Part shown: positions 1 to 17,084 of the stretch, in pieces
Layout of the letters: each line of letters opens with the position of its first letter
How positions within the stretch are numbered: position 1 is the first letter of the stretch
Assembly: GCA_947173915.1 (NCBI GenBank)
Contig: CAMWGZ010000003.1
Location: forward strand, 1 to 26,272
Length of the DNA: 26,272 nt
Source: an uncultured Alistipes sp.
GTDB lineage: Bacteria > Bacteroidota > Bacteroidia > Bacteroidales > Rikenellaceae
Direction: 5' to 3'
The notes under the pieces: model-generated
Databases searched by the model: none
What the model was told of the DNA's origin: nothing
Seen by the model: the letters and a program-made list of their open reading frames with translations, nothing else
Translations under genes and position numbers: made by a program

Positions 1-1799
1 CCCTCCTGCTGACGATGGACATGACCAAACTGGCCGACATGTCCTGCAACCCCGCCGTCGGAGGAATAGCCAAAGGACAGATAGTCAGAGAAATAGATGC
101 TTTAGGCGGTCAAATGGGACGCATTACCGATCTCACGGCCGTGCAATTCCGGATGCTCAACCGCTCGAAAGGGGCGGCCATGTGGAGTCCCCGGGCGCAA
201 TGCGACAAGCACCGCTTCTCCCAGGAGTGGCGCCGCACACTGGAAAACACCGTCAATCTCTATCTTTGGCAGGACGAGGCGGTAGAACCGATCATCGAAC
301 AGCAACCCGACGGGAGACCCCGCATCAAAGGGGTTCGCACACGCATGGGAGTCGAGTTCTCGGCCGACTGCGTGATCCTGACCGCCGGCACCTTCCTCTC
401 GGGCATGATGTACTGCGGCCGGGCACAGAGCGAGGGCGGCCGTGCCGGCGACCGCGCTTCGCACGGCATGACCGAGGCGCTCACGGCGCTCGGCTTCGAG
501 GCGGGGCGGATGAAGACCGGCACCCCGGCACGTCTCGACGCGCGCACGATCAATTTCGAGATTCTCGAACCGCAATACGGCGACGAATCCCCGGCGAAGT
601 TCTCCTTCTCGTCCGAGACGCAGCCTGTCCGGGAGCAGCTCCCCTGCTTCCTGGTCTATACCACCCCGGAGGTTCACGAGATCCTGCGCACCGGATTCGC
701 CGATTCGCCGCTCTTCAACGGCACGATCCGGGGCATCGGGCCGCGCTACTGCCCGAGCATCGAGGACAAACTCAACACCTTCGCAGACAAGGAGCAGCAC
801 CAGCTCTTCCTCGAACCGGAAGGGCGATCGACCAACGAATACTACCTGAACGGATTTTCGTCGTCGCTGCCCTGGGAGGTGCAGTGGAAAGCGCTCCATC
901 GGATCGCCGGATTCGAGGACCTGCATCTGTTCCGCCCCGGCTACGCAATCGAGTACGACTACTTCCTGCCGACGCAGCTCCACCACTCGCTCGAAACAAA
1001 ACAGATCGCCGGACTCTACTTCGCCGGGCAGATCAACGGCACGACCGGCTACGAGGAGGCCGCCGCCCAGGGGCTTATGGCGGGCATCAACGCCCACCGC
1101 AGTCGCACGGGCGAGGAGCCGCTCATCCTGAAGCGCGACGAAGCCTACATCGGCGTGCTGATCGACGACCTGGTAACCAAGGGGGTCGATGAACCCTACC
1201 GCATGTTTACCTCGCGGGCCGAATACCGCATCCTGCTGCGGCAGGACAACGCCGACCTGCGGCTGACTCCCATCGGCCGCAGGATCGGTCTGATAACGGA
1301 GAAGCGATACGCCGAATTTACCGAAAAAAAACGGCAGGTCGAGGCGCTCGTAGCCTTCGCCCGCGAACTGAGCGTCAAACCGCAGGAGGTAAACGCCTGC
1401 CTGGAGTCGCTCGGCTGCGACCCGCTGACGCAAGGCCGCAAACTGCGCGATCTGCTCATGCGCAACAACGTGACATTCATGACTCTGGCGGAAGTATTAC
1501 CCAAAGTGGCACGCTTCCTGAACGAGCACGGAATAACAGCCGAAGCGATCGAGGAGGCGGAGATTCAGATCAAATACCGGGGGTACATCGAGCGGGAACG
1601 CTTCATCGCGGACAAGTTGCACCGGCTGGAAAACATCCGCATTCCGCAGGATTTCGATTTCCAGACGATGAATGCCCTCACGATCGAGGCGCGGCAGAAG
1701 CTGACCCGCATCCGGCCCGCAACCATCGGTCAGGCATCGCGCATTCCGGGCGTATCGCCCGCCGACGTAAATGTTCTGCTCGTAAAGTTCGGAAGGTAA
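1..1799 (+). CDS. mnmG: tRNA uridine-5-carboxymethylaminomethyl modification enzyme MnmG (GidA), 5' truncated
   Basis: MnmG with MnmE builds the cmnm5 group on U34 of certain tRNAs, using FAD and methylene-tetrahydrofolate in the cytoplasm. The frame is open from base 3, and the codons before the first ATG (base 15) still read as family sequence (LLLTMDMTKLADMSCNPAVG), so the gene continues upstream. About 598 residues are visible; the family has about 620-630, so only the N-terminal stretch with the first FAD-binding glycines is missing. The family signatures MSCNPAVGGIAKG and GLYFAGQINGTTGYEEAAAQ and the helical C-terminal tRNA-binding region are present. It stands alone on the + strand and converges on the lipoprotein gene across a shared terminator. 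The promoter lies outside the window. Identification is secure. Confidence 0.97.
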   Translation, partial: LLLTMDMTKLADMSCNPAVGGIAKGQIVREIDALGGQMGRITDLTAVQFRMLNRSKGAAMWSPRAQCDKHRFSQEWRRTLENTVNLYLWQDEAVEPIIEQQPDGRPRIKGVRTRMGVEFSADCVILTAGTFLSGMMYCGRAQSEGGRAGDRASHGMTEALTALGFEAGRMKTGTPARLDARTINFEILEPQYGDESPAKFSFSSETQPVREQLPCFLVYTTPEVHEILRTGFADSPLFNGTIRGIGPRYCPSIEDKLNTFADKEQHQLFLEPEGRSTNEYYLNGFSSSLPWEVQWKALHRIAGFEDLHLFRPGYAIEYDYFLPTQLHHSLETKQIAGLYFAGQINGTTGYEEAAAQGLMAGINAHRSRTGEEPLILKRDEAYIGVLIDDLVTKGVDEPYRMFTSRAEYRILLRQDNADLRLTPIGRRIGLITEKRYAEFTEKKRQVEALVAFARELSVKPQEVNACLESLGCDPLTQGRKLRDLLMRNNVTFMTLAEVLPKVARFLNEHGITAEAIEEAEIQIKYRGYIERERFIADKLHRLENIRIPQDFDFQTMNALTIEARQKLTRIRPATIGQASRIPGVSPADVNVLLVKFGR

Positions 1800-6057: not shown

Positions 6058-6144
6058 GTGATTTTTCCAATAATCGGAAACGAAAACCCCATTTATTCTT
6101 TCGGATCTGCACCGCCCCGAGCCGAGGCGCACGCAGGCTGCACC

Positions 6145-6175
6145 GCCCGCGAAGCGGGCAGCGGCCCTTCGGGGC
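6145..6175. repeat. two adjacent GC-rich hairpins between ybeY and metG
   Basis: GCCCGC-gaa-GCGGGC (6145-6159) and GCCC-ttcg-GGGC (6164-6175) sit just past the ybeY stop. Neither has a T-run on the minus strand, so they are not clear intrinsic terminators; they may stabilise the ybeY 3' end or act with Rho. Confidence 0.5.
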
Positions 6176-6190
6176 GACAGCCGGAGCGGA

Positions 6191-6637
6191 TCACTTCGCC
6201 GCGCCGGCGAACTGCTCCCACAGGGCGAGGTAGCGGTCCTCCTTGCGGTGCATCTGCGCATTTGCGCGCGGGGTCTTGTCCTTCTGGCCGCAGAGGTGGA
6301 GCACGCCGTGCACCACCACCCGGCGCATCTCGCCGAGCGCGGTGGCACCGTACTGCCGGGCGTTGTCGGCGACGGTCTCCACGTCGATGAAGACATCGCC
6401 CGAGACTACGCCCGAACCCTTGCGGTCGCTGTAGTCGAACGTGATGACATCGGTGTAGTAGTCGTGCCCCAGAAACTGCCTGTTCATCTCCAGCAGTCGG
6501 GCCGCCGAGCAGAAGACATAGGTCACATCGCCCAGCTCGTAGCCCTCCTCGCGGGCCACCGCGCGCAGCCATTCGGCCGTCAGCCGCTTCTGCGGCAGAC
6601 GGTAGGTGCAGTCGTCGTTGTAATAGCGTACAGCCAT
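6191..6637 (-). CDS. ybeY: rRNA maturation endoribonuclease YbeY, 148 aa
   Basis: A metal-dependent single-strand endoribonuclease for 16S rRNA 3' maturation and ribosome quality control. The UPF0054 core is clear: MNRQFLGHDYYTDVITFDY (51-69), GDVFIDVETV, then HGVLHLCGQKD (110-120). In the usual motif HGxLHLxGYDH three His bind zinc; here His110 and His114 are kept but Asp120 stands where the third His should be. The arginine that follows the aromatic residue in the E. coli protein (YR) is replaced by Leu56 (FL). From memory these changes occur in other Bacteroidetes YbeY proteins, so I read this as a lineage variant and not a dead enzyme. Normal length, ATG start at 6637, upstream of metG but with metG having its own promoter. 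Confidence 0.94.
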   Translation of the reverse strand: MAVRYYNDDCTYRLPQKRLTAEWLRAVAREEGYELGDVTYVFCSAARLLEMNRQFLGHDYYTDVITFDYSDRKGSGVVSGDVFIDVETVADNARQYGATALGEMRRVVVHGVLHLCGQKDKTPRANAQMHRKEDRYLALWEQFAGAAK

Positions 6638-6950
6638 ACCCCCAATCGTCGTTTAGTCGTTACATCGCAGGACCGCCCTTCCGGACCGCTCCGGAATCGT
6701 TCCAGAGAACGGGTAAGACCGGGAGCGGACAGCGATAATCCCGTTCAAAATTAGCTATTATTATCCGTTCCTCCAAAACGGGGCGGGAAAAACCGGCTCC
6801 GCCGCCCCCTTGCCGCAGCGAACGCCCCCGGAAGAACCGAGGTGTTGCATTTCTCGAATATGTTCGTTAAATTTGTCGAACATATTGACAAACACGGAAA
6901 GTGTAAGTTTGTTCCCGTTGAGCGAACGTAGGAAATTCAAAATATTTTCC
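6638..6950. other. intergenic region with divergent promoters and inverted repeats
   Basis: No gene is seen. Besides the ybeY promoter it holds a 10-base-pair inverted repeat (AATATGTTCG at 6857-6866, CGAACATATT at 6877-6886) and a second, imperfect one at 6888-6912 (ACAAAC ... GTTTGT). Both lie 40-95 bases upstream of the -7 box for the structured RNAs and could be operator sites for it. Confidence 0.6.
6746..6777 (-). promoter_or_regulatory. ybeY promoter
   Basis: Minus strand: TTTG (6777-6774), 20 bases, then TAATTTTG (6753-6746), an exact match to the Bacteroidetes primary sigma consensus. Transcription would start near 6740, giving a leader of about 100 bases that contains the inverted repeat TTCCGGA-ccgc-TCCGGAA (6679-6696). 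Confidence 0.7.
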
Positions 6951-7332: not shown

Positions 7333-7395
7333 CTGGGCAACAGAGGAATCCGAAAATCTGGGAAAGAGTAGGAAAATCAAAAAAACATTAAACAA

Positions 7396-7926
7396 ATGAA
7401 AAAAGTAGTATTGTGCATGATGGCACTCATGTGTGCCATCGGCGTTTCGGCTCAAACCGCCGAAGAGATGCAGGCATCGAAAGAGCGTGCTGCAAAGCTG
7501 GAAAAATTGGTCCAACCGAAAAAATGCGGAATTGCAACGATCGACGAACTGACTTCGGCCGCAAGCCGTGTCGCAGTTGAATCGATTCAGATTACACCGC
7601 TGTTGCAAGGTTTGTATTACCGTTCAATCGGTCAGGCCGAAAACGGTGTTACGGATGTTACCGTAAAAAAGCCGACCGTAAATGAGTTGATGGAATTGAG
7701 CTCTCGAATCGGAAAGCAGGCAGTAGCTGTTGCTGACGCTACAAAATTGATACCCGAAGCCGGAGAGGAACTCAAAGGAGTTAAGAATCCGATGAAACTG
7801 GCAGCAGCTACGAAATCGGTAAAATACTCCACAGATGTTTTGGAGATCCTCGGTGTCGAAAGCGCATTCCAAGTGAAGGCTATCGCCGATATGATCAAGA
7901 CCGCGACTTCGAACGACAACCTGTAA
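7396..7926 (+). CDS. uncharacterised secreted protein, 176 aa
   Basis: I do not recognise a family. The N-terminus MKKVVLCMMALMCAIGVSAQ is a Sec signal peptide with probable cleavage after GVSA (residue 19); the Cys residues within it do not form a lipobox. The mature protein of about 157 residues is Ala/Lys/Glu-rich, probably mostly helical, with a single Cys at 44 and no transmembrane segment. The start at 7396 is supported by the signal peptide. It is moderately AT-rich compared with neighbours. It lies behind two tandem structured RNA elements with only 63 bases between the last U-run and its ATG, and no TAnnTTTG box close by, so its expression probably depends on read-through or on a promoter before the RNAs. 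It ends at a strong bidirectional terminator. Confidence 0.85.
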   Translation: MKKVVLCMMALMCAIGVSAQTAEEMQASKERAAKLEKLVQPKKCGIATIDELTSAASRVAVESIQITPLLQGLYYRSIGQAENGVTDVTVKKPTVNELMELSSRIGKQAVAVADATKLIPEAGEELKGVKNPMKLAAATKSVKYSTDVLEILGVESAFQVKAIADMIKTATSNDNL

Positions 7927-12209: not shown

Positions 12210-12380
12210 TATATTTTATCATATTTCGATAATATGTTTTTTGCGATTCCGCTCTGGCAGCGGCTGCGCGGCCACACGGTGCGGAGAGGTGCTGCGGCCG
12301 CACGGCACCTCGCTCCCCGGTTGGCGAACGCCCGCCCGAGCGAGGGCCGTCCGACGAAAGCTTTCGCCGCCGATTATGTC

Positions 12381-12408
12381 TTGCGAACGAAATAAATCGT
12401 TATCTTTA
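12381..12408 (+). promoter_or_regulatory. mrp promoter
   Basis: TTG (12381-12383), 17 bases, TATCTTTA (12401-12408), one mismatch from TAnnTTTG. It implies a start of transcription about 15 bases before the ATG at 12430 and supports that start. Confidence 0.55.
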
Positions 12409-12429
12409 CAGCGCAAACCAATTCAAATC

Positions 12430-13479
12430 ATGGAAGAGAAAATCAGAGAATTGCTCGACGGAATCCTCCATCCCGAAACGCAGCGGGGAATCGTGTCGAG
12501 CGGTCTGGTCGAAAAAATCGCCGCCGACGGAGCGAAAATTTCCGTCACGCTGAATTTCCCCAAGGCGCGAGATCCTTTCGCCCCGAAAATCAAACGTCAG
12601 ATCGAAGCGCTGCTCCGCGAGCGTTTCCCCGAAACCGATAACGTCGCCGTCCTGATCAAGGAGGCGGCACCGCGGCGGCCGGAACCCGCCGAAAAGCAGA
12701 CCACCACGGGCGACATCGCCCGCGTGGTGGCGATCGCCTCGGGCAAGGGCGGTGTCGGCAAATCGACCGTAACGGCCAACCTGGCCGTCGCCCTGCGCGA
12801 CCGCGGCTTCCGCGTCGGCATCCTCGATGCCGACATCTACGGTCCCTCGCAGCCCCGCATGTTCGGTCTCGAAGGCTACCTCCCCGAGGCCGTCTCGGAG
12901 GAGGGGCGCGACATCATCCTGCCGGCCGAGGCGGAGGGTATCAAGATCATGTCCATCGGTTTCTTCATCAAACCCGACGACGCGCTGCTCTGGCGCGGCG
13001 CGATGGCCGTGAACGCCCTGCGGCAGATGATCCACCAGACGCGCTGGGGCGCGCTGGACTTCCTGCTCGCGGACCTGCCTCCCGGCACGGGCGACATTCA
13101 TCTGTCGATCATCTCCGAACTGAAGATCGCAACCGCGGCGATCGTCTCCACACCGCAGCAGGTGGCCGTCGCCGACGTGCGCCGGGGCGTGGAGATGTTC
13201 CGCAACCCGCAGGTGAACATACCGATCGCCGGCATCATCGAAAATATGGCCTGGTTCACGCCCGAGGAGCTGCCCGAAAACCGCTACTACCTCTTCGGCC
13301 GGGGAGGCGCCCGCCGCTACGCCGCAGAGCACGGGGTCGATTTCCTGGGCGAAATACCGATCATCCAGTCCATCATGGAGGGAGCCGACAACGGCACCCC
13401 CTCCGCTGCGATCGACCCGAGGGTGGCCCCCTACTACCGGGACATTGCCGACAGGATTGTTGAAAAGGCCCTTCGATAA
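12430..13479 (+). CDS. mrp: Mrp/NBP35-family Fe-S carrier P-loop ATPase, 349 aa
   Basis: A cytoplasmic scaffold or carrier thought to hold and deliver Fe-S clusters (ApbC/Mrp). Residues 1-80 form the MIP18-like N-terminal domain (MEEKIRELLDGILHPETQRG), then a linker, then the deviant Walker A SGKGGVGKS (104-112, Lys111) and the Mrp signature LLADLPPGTGDIHLS. Most Mrp proteins have a CxxC pair after the ENM motif; here IENMAWFTPEELPENRYYLFG has none, and I recall the same in other Bacteroidetes. The cluster would need other ligands, or the protein may act without one. The start is set by homology and by a promoter at 12401-12408; longer in-frame starts are rejected. It is the last gene before the candidate oriC. 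Confidence 0.94.
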   Translation: MEEKIRELLDGILHPETQRGIVSSGLVEKIAADGAKISVTLNFPKARDPFAPKIKRQIEALLRERFPETDNVAVLIKEAAPRRPEPAEKQTTTGDIARVVAIASGKGGVGKSTVTANLAVALRDRGFRVGILDADIYGPSQPRMFGLEGYLPEAVSEEGRDIILPAEAEGIKIMSIGFFIKPDDALLWRGAMAVNALRQMIHQTRWGALDFLLADLPPGTGDIHLSIISELKIATAAIVSTPQQVAVADVRRGVEMFRNPQVNIPIAGIIENMAWFTPEELPENRYYLFGRGGARRYAAEHGVDFLGEIPIIQSIMEGADNGTPSAAIDPRVAPYYRDIADRIVEKALR

Positions 13480-13749
13480 AGGAATAACTCTGTTGAAAAC
13501 CCGATAACAACTTTTGAAAAGAAAAACGGCAGTCCGCTTGCGAATCCGATCTTCACGACGGTATGGAAAAAATCACGGAACGGCAAAAAAAAGTTTTCGA
13601 AAGTTATCGCAGTGCGTTATCGACCGAAACGGAGGGAGAATGTGAACAACCCGAACATGTCGAAATGTCGAAAGCAGTTACGAACATTTGTCGATAACCC
13701 GACATATTCCCGGCTGCAAGGCCTTTCGGCCAGGAAAAGAGAGAACGGA

Positions 13750-13807
13750 TTATACACACGGATTTCAAAACATGTGGATAATGAATTCACAGGAAAAGTT
13801 ATCCACA
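13750..13807. promoter_or_regulatory. cluster of three DnaA boxes
   Basis: TTATACACA (13750-13758, +), TGTGGATAA (13773-13781, i.e. TTATCCACA on the minus strand) and TTATCCACA (13799-13807, +). Two are exact consensus and one is the common TTATNCACA variant. The gaps are 14 and 17 bases. A chance cluster of this quality is unlikely. Confidence 0.8.
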
Positions 13808-13815
13808 CAATTGAC

Positions 13816-13875
13816 AGGTATTATTTCTATTCTTGAATTATTCTTTAAAATTAAATAAAAAGTAAAAATAAAAAA
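13816..13875. other. AT-rich putative DNA unwinding element
   Basis: 53 of 60 bases are A or T, starting 9 bases after the last DnaA box and ending at the nadA start region. The position next to the DnaA boxes is that of a DUE. It must also serve as the nadA leader; no clean nadA promoter is seen in it. Confidence 0.6.
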
Positions 13876-13877
13876 CG

Positions 13878-14816
13878 ATGGTTGAAAACTCGTCGCAACT
13901 CATGGAGGAGATTCGCCGGCTGAAGCGGGAGAAGAACGCCGTGATCCTGGCACACTACTATACGCGGCCCGAAGTGCAGCAGGCGGCCGATTTTCTGGGC
14001 GACTCGCTCGCCCTGTCGATTCAGGCGCAGAAGACCGATGCCGCGATCATCCTCTTCGCCGGGGTGCGCTTCATGGGCGAAACGGCCAAGGTGCTCTCGC
14101 CCGAAAAGAAGGTGCTGCTCCCCTGCCCCGAGGCCGACTGTTCGCTGGCCGCCTCGTGCGATGCGGAGGAGTTCGCCGCCTTCCGGGCCAAATACCCCGG
14201 GCACAAGGTGGTCTCCTATGTAAATACGACGGTCGGGGTCAAGGCGCTGACCGACATCTGCTGCACCTCCTCCAATGCGCTGCGGGTCGTCGAGTCGATT
14301 CCGGCCGACCAGCCGATCCTCTTCGCCCCCGACCGCAACCTGGGCGGCTACATCCGCAAGCTGACCGGGCGGGAGAACATGGTGGTCTGGGACGGTGCGT
14401 GCCACGTGCACGAGGAGTTCTCGCTCGAGAAGATCCTGGAGCTGCAGCGGCAGCACCCCGAAGCCCGCACGGTGGCCCACCCCGAGTGCCGCGCCTATGT
14501 GGTCGAGGCGGCCGACTTCGTCGGTTCGACGGCCGCGATCCTGGAGTATTGCCGCACGAGCGGGGCGCGCGAGTTCATCGTGGCGACCGAGGCGGGCATT
14601 CTCGCCGAGATGAAGCGCCTCTGCCCCGACAAGGTGTTCCTTCCCGCGCCTCCCGACGATGCGACGTGCGGATGCAACGAGTGCCGCTACATGAAGATGG
14701 TCACGCTCGAAAACATCCTCTCCACGCTGCGCGACGAGTCGCCCGAGGTGCTCATCGACGAAGAGGTGCGCCGGCGTGCCGAGCGCTCCATCCGCAACAT
14801 GATCGCCATCGGATAG
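13878..14816 (+). CDS. nadA: quinolinate synthase NadA, 312 aa
   Basis: Makes quinolinate from iminoaspartate and dihydroxyacetone phosphate in de novo NAD synthesis, using a 4Fe-4S cluster held by three Cys. Candidate ligands are visible at Cys88 (CPEADCSLA), Cys175 (WDGACHVHEEF) and in the CGCNEC cluster at 264-269. The substrate-binding stretches AHYYTRPEVQQ (25-35), CTSSNA and FAPDRNLGGYI are present. Length is normal for the short bacterial form. The ATG at 13878 starts in the AT-rich edge of the candidate origin. nadB and nadC are not next to it. It is followed 60 bases later by the S46 peptidase gene on the same strand. Confidence 0.97.
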   Translation: MVENSSQLMEEIRRLKREKNAVILAHYYTRPEVQQAADFLGDSLALSIQAQKTDAAIILFAGVRFMGETAKVLSPEKKVLLPCPEADCSLAASCDAEEFAAFRAKYPGHKVVSYVNTTVGVKALTDICCTSSNALRVVESIPADQPILFAPDRNLGGYIRKLTGRENMVVWDGACHVHEEFSLEKILELQRQHPEARTVAHPECRAYVVEAADFVGSTAAILEYCRTSGAREFIVATEAGILAEMKRLCPDKVFLPAPPDDATCGCNECRYMKMVTLENILSTLRDESPEVLIDEEVRRRAERSIRNMIAIG

Positions 14817-14876: not shown

Positions 14877-17084
14877 ATGAAAAAACTGTTTTTGTGTCTG
14901 GCTGCGGCGGCCGTATCGCTGACCGCTTCGGCCGACGAGGGTATGTGGCTGCTGCCCTACCTCCAGAAAATGAACATCGGCGACATGCGTGCCAAAGGGT
15001 GCGAGCTGACCGCCGAGCAGATCTATTCGATCAACAGCGGCTCGCTCAAGGATGCCATCGTCATCTTCGGCAACGGCTGCACCGGCGAGGTGGTCTCGCC
15101 CGAAGGTCTGGTCTTTACCAACCACCACTGCGGCTACGCTTCGATCCAGGAGCTTTCGTCGGTCGAGCACGACTACCTCAAGGACGGCTTCTGGGCTTCG
15201 TGCAACGCCGAGGAGCTGCCCGCTCCGGGTCTGACGGTAACCTTCATCCGCAATATTCTGGACGTTACGCCCGAGGTGCTGGGGGCGATTCCCTCGATCG
15301 CCGGCGGCAGCGAGCGCATTGAGCTTGCCGAGCGCAACATCGATGCGGTGCGCGAGCGGCTTCAGGCGGAGTATCCCGGCAAGACGATCGCCATCAAGAG
15401 CTTCTTCGGCGGCAACCAGTATTTCGCCTTCGTGCAGGATATTTTCCGCGATATCCGTCTGGTGGGTACGCCCCCCTCGTCGATCGGCAAGTTCGGCGGC
15501 GAGACCGACAACTGGATGTGGCCGCGCCACACGGGCGACTTCTCGATCTTCCGCATCTATGCCGACAAGGAGAACAACCCGGCGGCCTACTCCCCCGAGA
15601 ACGTACCCTACCGTGCCGATAACCACCTGAAGATCTCGCTCGACGGCATCGAGGAGAACGACTTCGCGATGATCATGGGCTTCCCGGGATCGACGCAGCG
15701 CTACATGACCTCCTACGAGATCGACGAGCTGCTCAACGTGACCGGTCCCCAGCGCGTGGCCATCCGCGGCGCACGCCAGGAGATCCTTAAGAAGGACATG
15801 CTTGCCAGCGACAAGGTGCGCATCCAGTACGCCTCGAAGTATGCCGGTTCGTCCAACTACTGGAAGAACACCATCGGTATGATGCGCGGCGTGAAGAAGC
15901 TCGACGTGAAGGCCAAGAAGGAGGCTCAGGAGGCTGCCTTCCAGGCGTGGGCCGATGCCAACGCGCTGCCCGAGGAGGGATTCGCCCAGGCGCTCGGCAT
16001 GATTCGCGGGGCGCTTGAGGAGAGTCGTTCCTATACCGCTTCGCTCCAGTACCTGAGCGAGGCGTGCGGCATGGCCGTAGAGATCATTTCGCCGGCCATC
16101 TCGGCCCGCCGCATCCTCGGTGCCGAGGAGGTGTCCGACGAGATGAAGCAGCGTCTGGAGGAGTACTACGTGCAGTTCTACAAGGACTACAACATGCCCA
16201 CCGACCGCAAGGTGGCCAAGCGCATGCTGGCGATGGTGCGTGAGCACGTCGCGGAGCTTCCGAGCGTCTTCGCCGAGGTGATCGATGCCCGTTTCGGCGG
16301 CGACATCGACGCTTATGTGGATTATCTCTACGACAATTCGGCCTTTACCTCCTACGAGAAGGCGACGGCCGTCGCTCCCGACCAGCTTGCCGGGGATCCC
16401 GCCGTGGTGCTGGCCGAGTCGGTTATCGGCAAGATGGGCGAGCTGCGCGAGAAGATGGTTGCCACCAACTTGCAGTTCGCCGACGGCCACCGTCTCTACA
16501 TCGCCGGTCTGATGCGCATGCAGCCCGACAAGGCCTTCTACCCCGATGCCAACTTCACGCTGCGCATGACCTACGGCCAGGTGCTTCCCTACGAGCCGAT
16601 GGACGGCGTGAAGTACGAATACTATACCACGCTCAAGGGTGTGATGGAGAAGGAGAACCCCGAGAATCCCGAGTTCGTGGTGCCGGCCAAGCTGCGCGCG
16701 CTCTACGAGAAGAAGGATTTCGGCCGTTGGGCCGACCGCAACGGCGAGCTGCCCGTGGCGTTCCTGGCCAACTGCGACATTACGGGCGGTAACTCGGGTT
16801 CGCCGATGATGAACGGCCGGGGCGAGCTGATCGGTCTGGCATTCGACGGCAACTGGGAGGCTATGTCGGGCGACATAGCCTTCGAGCCGGAGGTGCAGCG
16901 CACCATCGGTGTCGATGTTCGCTACGTGCTCTTCGTGATCGACAAGTTCGCCGATGCGGGCTGGCTCCTTGAGGAGATGACCCTCGTGGGCGGCGACGGC
17001 GAGAAGAGCTGCTGCGCCGACAAGAAGGGCAGCGACAAAAAGGCGAAGAAGGCTGCGAAAAAGGCCAAGGCCGGCAAGAAGTAG
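14877..17084 (+). CDS. S46 family dipeptidyl-peptidase, DPP7-like, 735 aa
   Basis: A periplasmic serine exopeptidase that releases dipeptides from the N-terminus of oligopeptides, supplying peptide nutrients. The signal peptide MKKLFLCLAAAAVSLTASA is probably cut near residue 19. The chymotrypsin-like triad is visible: His in FTNHHCGY (about residue 84), Asp221 in RHTGDFS, Ser640 in TGGNSGSP. The residue 18 after the Ser, which sets P1 preference in this family, is Gly658, as in DPP7 (hydrophobic P1) and unlike the Arg of DPP11 (Asp/Glu); this assignment is from memory of the P. gingivalis enzymes. The last ~25 residues form an odd Lys/Ala-rich tail (KKAKKAAKKAKAGKK) after a CC pair. It ends at a clear terminator. 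Confidence 0.95.
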   Translation: MKKLFLCLAAAAVSLTASADEGMWLLPYLQKMNIGDMRAKGCELTAEQIYSINSGSLKDAIVIFGNGCTGEVVSPEGLVFTNHHCGYASIQELSSVEHDYLKDGFWASCNAEELPAPGLTVTFIRNILDVTPEVLGAIPSIAGGSERIELAERNIDAVRERLQAEYPGKTIAIKSFFGGNQYFAFVQDIFRDIRLVGTPPSSIGKFGGETDNWMWPRHTGDFSIFRIYADKENNPAAYSPENVPYRADNHLKISLDGIEENDFAMIMGFPGSTQRYMTSYEIDELLNVTGPQRVAIRGARQEILKKDMLASDKVRIQYASKYAGSSNYWKNTIGMMRGVKKLDVKAKKEAQEAAFQAWADANALPEEGFAQALGMIRGALEESRSYTASLQYLSEACGMAVEIISPAISARRILGAEEVSDEMKQRLEEYYVQFYKDYNMPTDRKVAKRMLAMVREHVAELPSVFAEVIDARFGGDIDAYVDYLYDNSAFTSYEKATAVAPDQLAGDPAVVLAESVIGKMGELREKMVATNLQFADGHRLYIAGLMRMQPDKAFYPDANFTLRMTYGQVLPYEPMDGVKYEYYTTLKGVMEKENPENPEFVVPAKLRALYEKKDFGRWADRNGELPVAFLANCDITGGNSGSPMMNGRGELIGLAFDGNWEAMSGDIAFEPEVQRTIGVDVRYVLFVIDKFADAGWLLEEMTLVGGDGEKSCCADKKGSDKKAKKAAKKAKAGKK

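Follow-up and report, generated by a model that had tools for sequence, protein, structure and literature searches.

A predicted chromosomal replication origin between mrp and nadA in an Alistipes-like bacterium

Introduction

Where on the chromosome does replication start in an Alistipes-like bacterium, and is a short gene-free gap between mrp and nadA the place? Such a role was proposed in an initial annotation made from the DNA letters, which pointed to DnaA boxes beside an A/T-rich stretch. The question was followed up here in the window, i.e. the whole stretch of 26,272 nucleotides analysed, and in related genomes.

The locus and its assembly

The window corresponds to contig C3 of the source assembly (G000), which comprises 1.36 Mb in 214 contigs and is 85% complete. 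Among records with a name, the closest is that of 'Alistipes sp. isolate SC0410_S4_8', whose NadA protein shows 97% identity. The left neighbour of the gap is mrp (12241–13479, + strand), identified by a Pfam match as a NUBPL/ParA-type P-loop NTPase (PF10609), and the right neighbour is nadA (13878–14816, +), identified in the same way as quinolinate synthase (PF02445). Between the end of mrp and the start of nadA lie 398 bases (13480–13877), and the gene calls agree with the initial annotation that this gap is free of genes and flanked by these two. The whole intergenic region (13480–13877, +) is taken as the predicted oriC, on the basis of the genes, the box density and the gap length in relatives.

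The annotation had also placed the origin away from dnaA, and this was borne out: the source genome has dnaA on a contig other than C3, and in the complete genome of a congener (G178) dnaA is located at 3.168 Mb and the corresponding element at 1,154,510.

Two other kinds of element were considered for the gap and rejected. A plasmid origin was dismissed since positions 13400–13900 had no match in 72,556 plasmid records, and an RNA leader or riboswitch was dismissed since no Rfam match was found there at the gathering score. Elsewhere in the window, the Rfam DUF805b cis-regulatory RNA motif was detected at 7340–7374 (+) with 46.4 bits (gathering score 35.6), 22 bases ahead of an open reading frame (7396–7926, +) that has no Pfam family over the cut-off; the same is true of the frames at 1893–2699 (−) and 6093–6754. 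No tRNA was found in the window.

DnaA boxes and the A/T-rich tract

The three DnaA boxes reported to lie within 58 bases are present as described, namely TTATACACA at 13750–13758 (+) and TTATCCACA at 13773–13781 (−) and again at 13799–13807 (+). Beyond these, the gap holds five more degenerate boxes with at most two mismatches: TTTTCAACA (13491–13499, −), TTTTCCATA (13562–13570, −), TTATCGACC (13617–13625, +) and TTGTTCACA (13641–13649, −) with two mismatches each, and TTATCGACA (13689–13697, −) with one. In the nearest relative, L010, the counterpart of TTGTTCACA reads TTATTCACA. The eight boxes within two mismatches of TTATCCACA amount to 20.1 per kb, compared with 1.97 per kb elsewhere in the window.

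The simplest objection is that boxes of this kind gather by chance in an A/T-rich intergenic stretch. Over the whole window the enrichment of loose boxes is indeed mild, as TTATNCACA with at most one mismatch occurs 11 times against 6.3 expected and 7 of 100 shuffles contain as many, and hence the signal lies in the clustering. None of 500 shuffles of the gap reached eight boxes, the largest count being six, so the cluster is denser than chance. Together with the conservation in relatives described below, this makes a chance cluster scarcely credible.

The genome-wide box count that had been suggested as a check of clustering gave a concordant result. The assembly contains 11 exact copies of TTATNCACA, three of which fall within the 58 bases, and the source assembly, which is 85% complete, gave no other place where three exact boxes cluster. 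Exact copies less than 1 kb apart were seen at one other place, contig C154:445–592 of the same genome, with 139 bases between the two. Loci that titrate or reactivate DnaA, such as datA and DARS, also carry clusters of DnaA boxes, and a locus of that sort lying near the origin but not at it would account for the box density. The lack of another three-box cluster in the assembly speaks against it, as do the conserved features and the skew data presented below.

Next to the boxes, a stretch of 60 bases with 53 A/T was confirmed, starting at 13816. This value is the maximum for the window, and just three overlapping 60-base frames reach it, all of them here. By its composition, the tract at 13816–13875 is the predicted unwinding element.

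A conserved core with apparently drifted boxes

The comparison of the mrp–nadA gap in related genomes, which had likewise been proposed as a check, revealed a conserved element. The survey covered 38 distinct gaps of the genus and its kin, including that of the window; loci without mrp on the same stretch or cut by a contig end were left out, as were L051 and L055, in which mrp is 1.9–2.2 kb away. The gap measures 340–441 bases in 36 of the 38 and 656–658 bases in two. In 35 of the 38 gaps, boxes within two mismatches exceed chance at the 0.05 level, and a common core pattern is located near the 3′ end in 37, the exception being L040, which gave no match to the search pattern. Both observations weigh further against a chance cluster. 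The core consists, in this order, of two abutting boxes mostly ending in ACAG, roughly three bases of spacer, TTATT-type triplets and the A/T tract. In the 37 cores the invariant columns are A-C-A of the first box, T and A-C of the second box, and T-T-x-T after the spacer.

In the window, the core starts with the TTATCCACA box at 13799–13807 (+), which is kept in L010 and belongs to the part found in 37 of 38 gaps. It is followed directly by a second, low-match box, CAATTGACA (13808–13816, +; four mismatches), recognized by reading the sequence and by the conservation of its columns. The profile R1, built from the core, matches 13785–13868 (+) with 49 bits, the window being itself among the 37 training rows.

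The exact boxes emphasized at the outset are therefore real, but they are not the conserved part. Exact TTATNCACA occurs in only 7 of the 38 gaps, and the box at 13773–13781 is lost in L010, the one at 13750–13758 being kept. The commonest shared 8-mer is TGTTGAAA, present in 32 of 38 gaps and contained in the window in the box at 13491–13499, and TATCAACA is present in 24. From these two counts, the DnaA box of the Alistipes group has apparently shifted to TT(A/T)TC(A/G)ACA.

The core fits the published 'basal unwinding system' (BUS), whose rule asks for a DnaA box that may be followed by a second one, no more than 16 bases of spacer, and three or more NAN triplets read 3′–5′ (PMC8287927). 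Here the first box has no mismatch (TTATCCACA, limit two), the second has four (CAATTGACA, limit four), and the triplets begin 10 bases from the first core box, within the 16 allowed. The predicted DnaA-trios are six consecutive NAN triplets (CAT AAT AAA GAT AAG AAC, 3′–5′) at 13818–13835 on the − strand. Six were also reached by 14 of 200 shuffled tails (p 0.07), and this trio part is the weakest of the BUS reading. At least three trios are found in 35 of the 37 cores, a number that A/T-rich shuffled tails often reach too; the three-base phasing is conserved in the columns of the core alignment.

GC skew at the gap

Since the source assembly is too fragmented for a genome-wide skew of its own, the skew test called for in the initial annotation was run on relatives. 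The congener G178 is a complete single contig of 3,377,718 bases (3.378 Mb). From it, 60 stretches of 20 kb were sampled, of which 20 form an unbroken block around the element, and the cumulative skew was computed on a 5-kb grid with the mean removed and values filled from the nearest sample. The minimum was found at 1,150,000, and the element lies at 1,154,510–1,154,596, again between mrp and nadA. At base level, the minimum of the region 954–1354 kb is at 1,153,807, inside mrp and about 400 bases from the gap. Samples far from the element are individually noisy. A fit with two equal arms was best at 1,260,000, and the element ranks 13th of 169 positions.

A sign change at the gap was observed in three more genomes. 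In G070 (contig of 3,788,833 bases), each of the 10 samples to the left of the element is negative and each of the 10 to its right positive, the samples covering 2.7 of 3.79 Mb (up to 2.72 Mb). In G020, 14 of 15 samples left of the gap are negative and 8 of 9 on the right positive; in G023 the counts are 7 of 8 and 8 of 8. The minima of 200-kb stretches lie about 1.0 kb (G020) and 0.8 kb (G023) from the edge of the gap. Within the window, the skew is lowest at 15,875, which is 2 kb to the right of the gap, and this minimum is shallow (−518 vs −482 in mid-gap).

At the 10-kb scale the signal weakens: the skew on the right exceeds that on the left in 12 of 14 loci of relatives, with a strict switch from negative to positive in only six. 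Control loci with nadA but without mrp upstream behave differently, the right exceeding the left in 3 of 13 and a strict switch being seen in one.

These data bear directly on a datA/DARS-like locus placed merely near the origin. In stretches of three relatives the base-level minimum falls no more than about 1 kb from the gap, in G070 the minimum coincides with the gap on the sampling grid, and the A/T tract and the box–spacer–triplet core are conserved; such a locus is thus very improbable. The 398-base mrp–nadA gap is very likely the chromosomal oriC (we would put the probability at roughly 0.95), because DnaA-like boxes crowd it and four related genomes show a switch of skew sign at that place. 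Further support for this assignment comes from the A/T tract and the conserved core.

The element across the genus and its ties to mrp and nadA

A further explanation would make the gap a DnaA-regulated promoter or control region of nadA, which ties expression of the gene to replication and has no origin function. It was weighed against the distribution of the element, obtained by scanning with R1, a profile of 92 positions of the core trained on 37 gaps adjacent to mrp and nadA; the scan itself takes no account of genes. Of the 180 genus genomes scanned, R1 matches 157 and leaves 23 without a match; among the 70 with a completeness of at least 90% and no more than 5% contamination, it matches 67. 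As is expected of an element occurring once per chromosome, the match is single in 149 of the 157, including the source genome, and double in eight. The eight genomes with two matches (G069, G075, G098, G031, G106, G152, G164 and G166) may be mixtures of strains, or their extra match may be a second site or a weak side hit.

The places of the element are listed for 148 of the 157 genomes, on which the neighbour counts rest. The element is situated behind mrp in 127 of the 148, at a distance of 252–601 bases with a median of 312 (128 pairs). In 74 there is mrp upstream and nadA downstream. In 41, mrp is upstream and nadA was not found, many of these assemblies being incomplete so that its absence is unproven. 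In another 12, mrp is upstream and nadA is not within 400 bases downstream: in ten of them nadA is on another contig or more than 100 kb away, in one it is 1.9 kb further on, and in one both the element and nadA stand at contig ends. The remaining places have nadA downstream with mrp not among the matches listed (8 of 148), or neither gene among the matches listed (13 of 148, four of which have mrp 0.9–1.9 kb upstream); as these counts apply to the mrp matches listed, they do not mean that mrp is absent. In G001, G093, G135 and G159 the element is 0.9–1.9 kb behind mrp rather than about 0.3 kb, as if there had been an insertion between mrp and the origin.

A role in nadA control is consistent with the position of the element, which directly precedes nadA in the window, in 82 of the 148 genomes whose places are listed and in 30 of 36 loci of a wider set (see below), and with promoter-like hexamers that exceed shuffled sequence (4 vs a mean of 0.7). 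Yet the element is kept behind mrp where nadA is not found (41) or is far away (10), which shows it to be independent of nadA and not a regulator of that gene. In addition, the skew step is missing where nadA has no mrp upstream (3 of 13 vs 12 of 14), and the skew minimum falls on the gap or within about 1 kb of it. A nadA control region without origin function is accordingly given very little credence, and the gap continues to be read as oriC.

The core in other Bacteroidales

An ungapped matrix failed on most other Bacteroidales, since their spacer has one extra base, with the best match of the locus falling upstream of nadA in 4 of 36 loci (1.5 expected). A gapped matrix was therefore used, made from the 37 genus cores only, and a shorter form of it was scored in the 500 bases upstream of nadA. 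The wider set consisted of 37 loci (L053–L089), reduced to 36 as one had too little sequence, mostly from Bacteroides, Parabacteroides and Paludibacteraceae. The core was detected upstream of nadA in 30 of the 36 at p ≤ 0.01 (200 shuffles each, uncorrected for many tests), in most of them 60–125 bases before nadA and in three Parabacteroides loci at about 400 bases; the best match in L083, one of the 30, is out of register. The six misses are L053 (p 0.020), L057 (p 0.085), L071 and the Alistipes/Rikenellaceae loci L055, L058 and L061. The L055 core is found 1.9 kb upstream of nadA instead.

When the gapped search was extended to the whole locus, the best match was upstream of nadA in 14 of 36 cases, compared with 0.65 expected. 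The skew changes from negative to positive across the site in 24 of 30 wider loci with enough flank. In other families of the order, 18 of 24 genomes had a nadA match and 16 of these were testable; five of the 16 were positive at p ≤ 0.01 and some others look similar by eye, so that conservation throughout the order is not proven for the deep families.

Many Bacteroides loci have an equal or better match to the double box about 720–910 bases upstream of nadA. In the two loci examined, L084 and L067, this match is inside a reverse-strand reading frame. From its motifs, we take the frame to encode an RNA methyltransferase. We treat the upstream match as a coincidence of coding sequence, the alternative being a second DnaA site.

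These results suggest that the ancestor of much of the Bacteroidales had its origin beside nadA. We lean towards the broader view that the Bacteroidales have kept one ancestral nadA-side origin, in the form of a two-box, triplet-repeat module that persists in spite of the drifted boxes; scans for TTATCCACA would then miss most genomes of the Alistipes group. The same view would take in Bacteroides, Parabacteroides, Paludibacteraceae and Alistipes, with the module about 60–125 bases before nadA, or about 400 bases in Parabacteroides.

Gene order and direction around the gap

A survey of the genes around the gap covered 13 loci or stretches of relatives, picked by hand. The metG gene was found in 11, to the left of the gap in five and to the right in six, and each time it reads away from the gap. 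Inversions symmetric about an origin move a block to the other side and keep its direction relative to the origin; the change of side of metG at constant direction is the pattern expected of them. mnmG was found in 10 of the 13, on either side at 6–11 kb from mrp, and reads towards the gap in all 10. In the window, mnmG (gidA) occupies 15–1799 (+), some 12 kb to the left of the predicted origin. Less regular are the S49 gene, found in 12 loci and always on the mrp side, reading away from the gap in eight and towards it in four, and pheS, which reads towards the gap in all four loci of relatives where it was found but away in the window. Overall, the genes of the window diverge from the gap, with five of the seven Pfam-identified genes on the left on the − strand and six of seven on the right on the + strand.

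Relation to known origins and proposed initiation

Like the gap described here, the origin of Escherichia coli is not beside dnaA. It lies between gidA (mnmG) and mioC (PMC10225481), and mnmG is also close to the gap in the window, although not adjacent to it. A nearer parallel, compared by description, is the predicted oriC of Prevotella intermedia OMA14, a region of 476 bases assigned with Ori-Finder (PMC4755523), which is a DnaA-box cluster of similar size at a skew transition and far from dnaA. The same report describes an oriC far from dnaA as common in Bacteroidetes, so the distance seen here is no oddity (PMC4755523). Among the literature matches listed, there was no mrp–oriC–nadA arrangement and no Alistipes origin; a prediction for an Alistipes chromosome may exist in DoriC.

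BUS sequences were predicted in the origins of 1755 of 2070 species (PMC8287927). The core shares with the Bacillus subtilis type the tandem boxes, the run of at least three NAN triplets, the A/T-rich region and the order of boxes and triplets, and the spacer of 10 bases from the better box is within the published peak of 10–13 (PMC8287927). It differs in that the gap does not adjoin dnaA, in the apparently drifted boxes of the relatives and in their triplets, which by eye are mostly AAT, AAG and AAC rather than GAT.

On this model, initiation would begin with DnaA binding the cluster of eight DnaA-like boxes, degenerate and spread over about 320 bases. From the abutting boxes at 13799–13816, DnaA would extend onto the bottom-strand triplets at 13818–13835, stretch that strand and melt the tract at 13816–13875. 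The helicase would then be loaded at the melted tract and two forks would depart, one through nadA and one through mrp.

Significance

Alistipes and its relatives are gut bacteria, represented in this dataset mostly by fragmented assemblies. An origin defined by its sequence would anchor growth-rate estimates from read depth in such broken genomes, and gives a start coordinate for closing Alistipes genomes. A DnaA/oriC system with altered boxes would provide a test of how far the basal unwinding mechanism reaches, and the swaps of flanking genes at the gap offer a clear case for studying origin-symmetric inversions.
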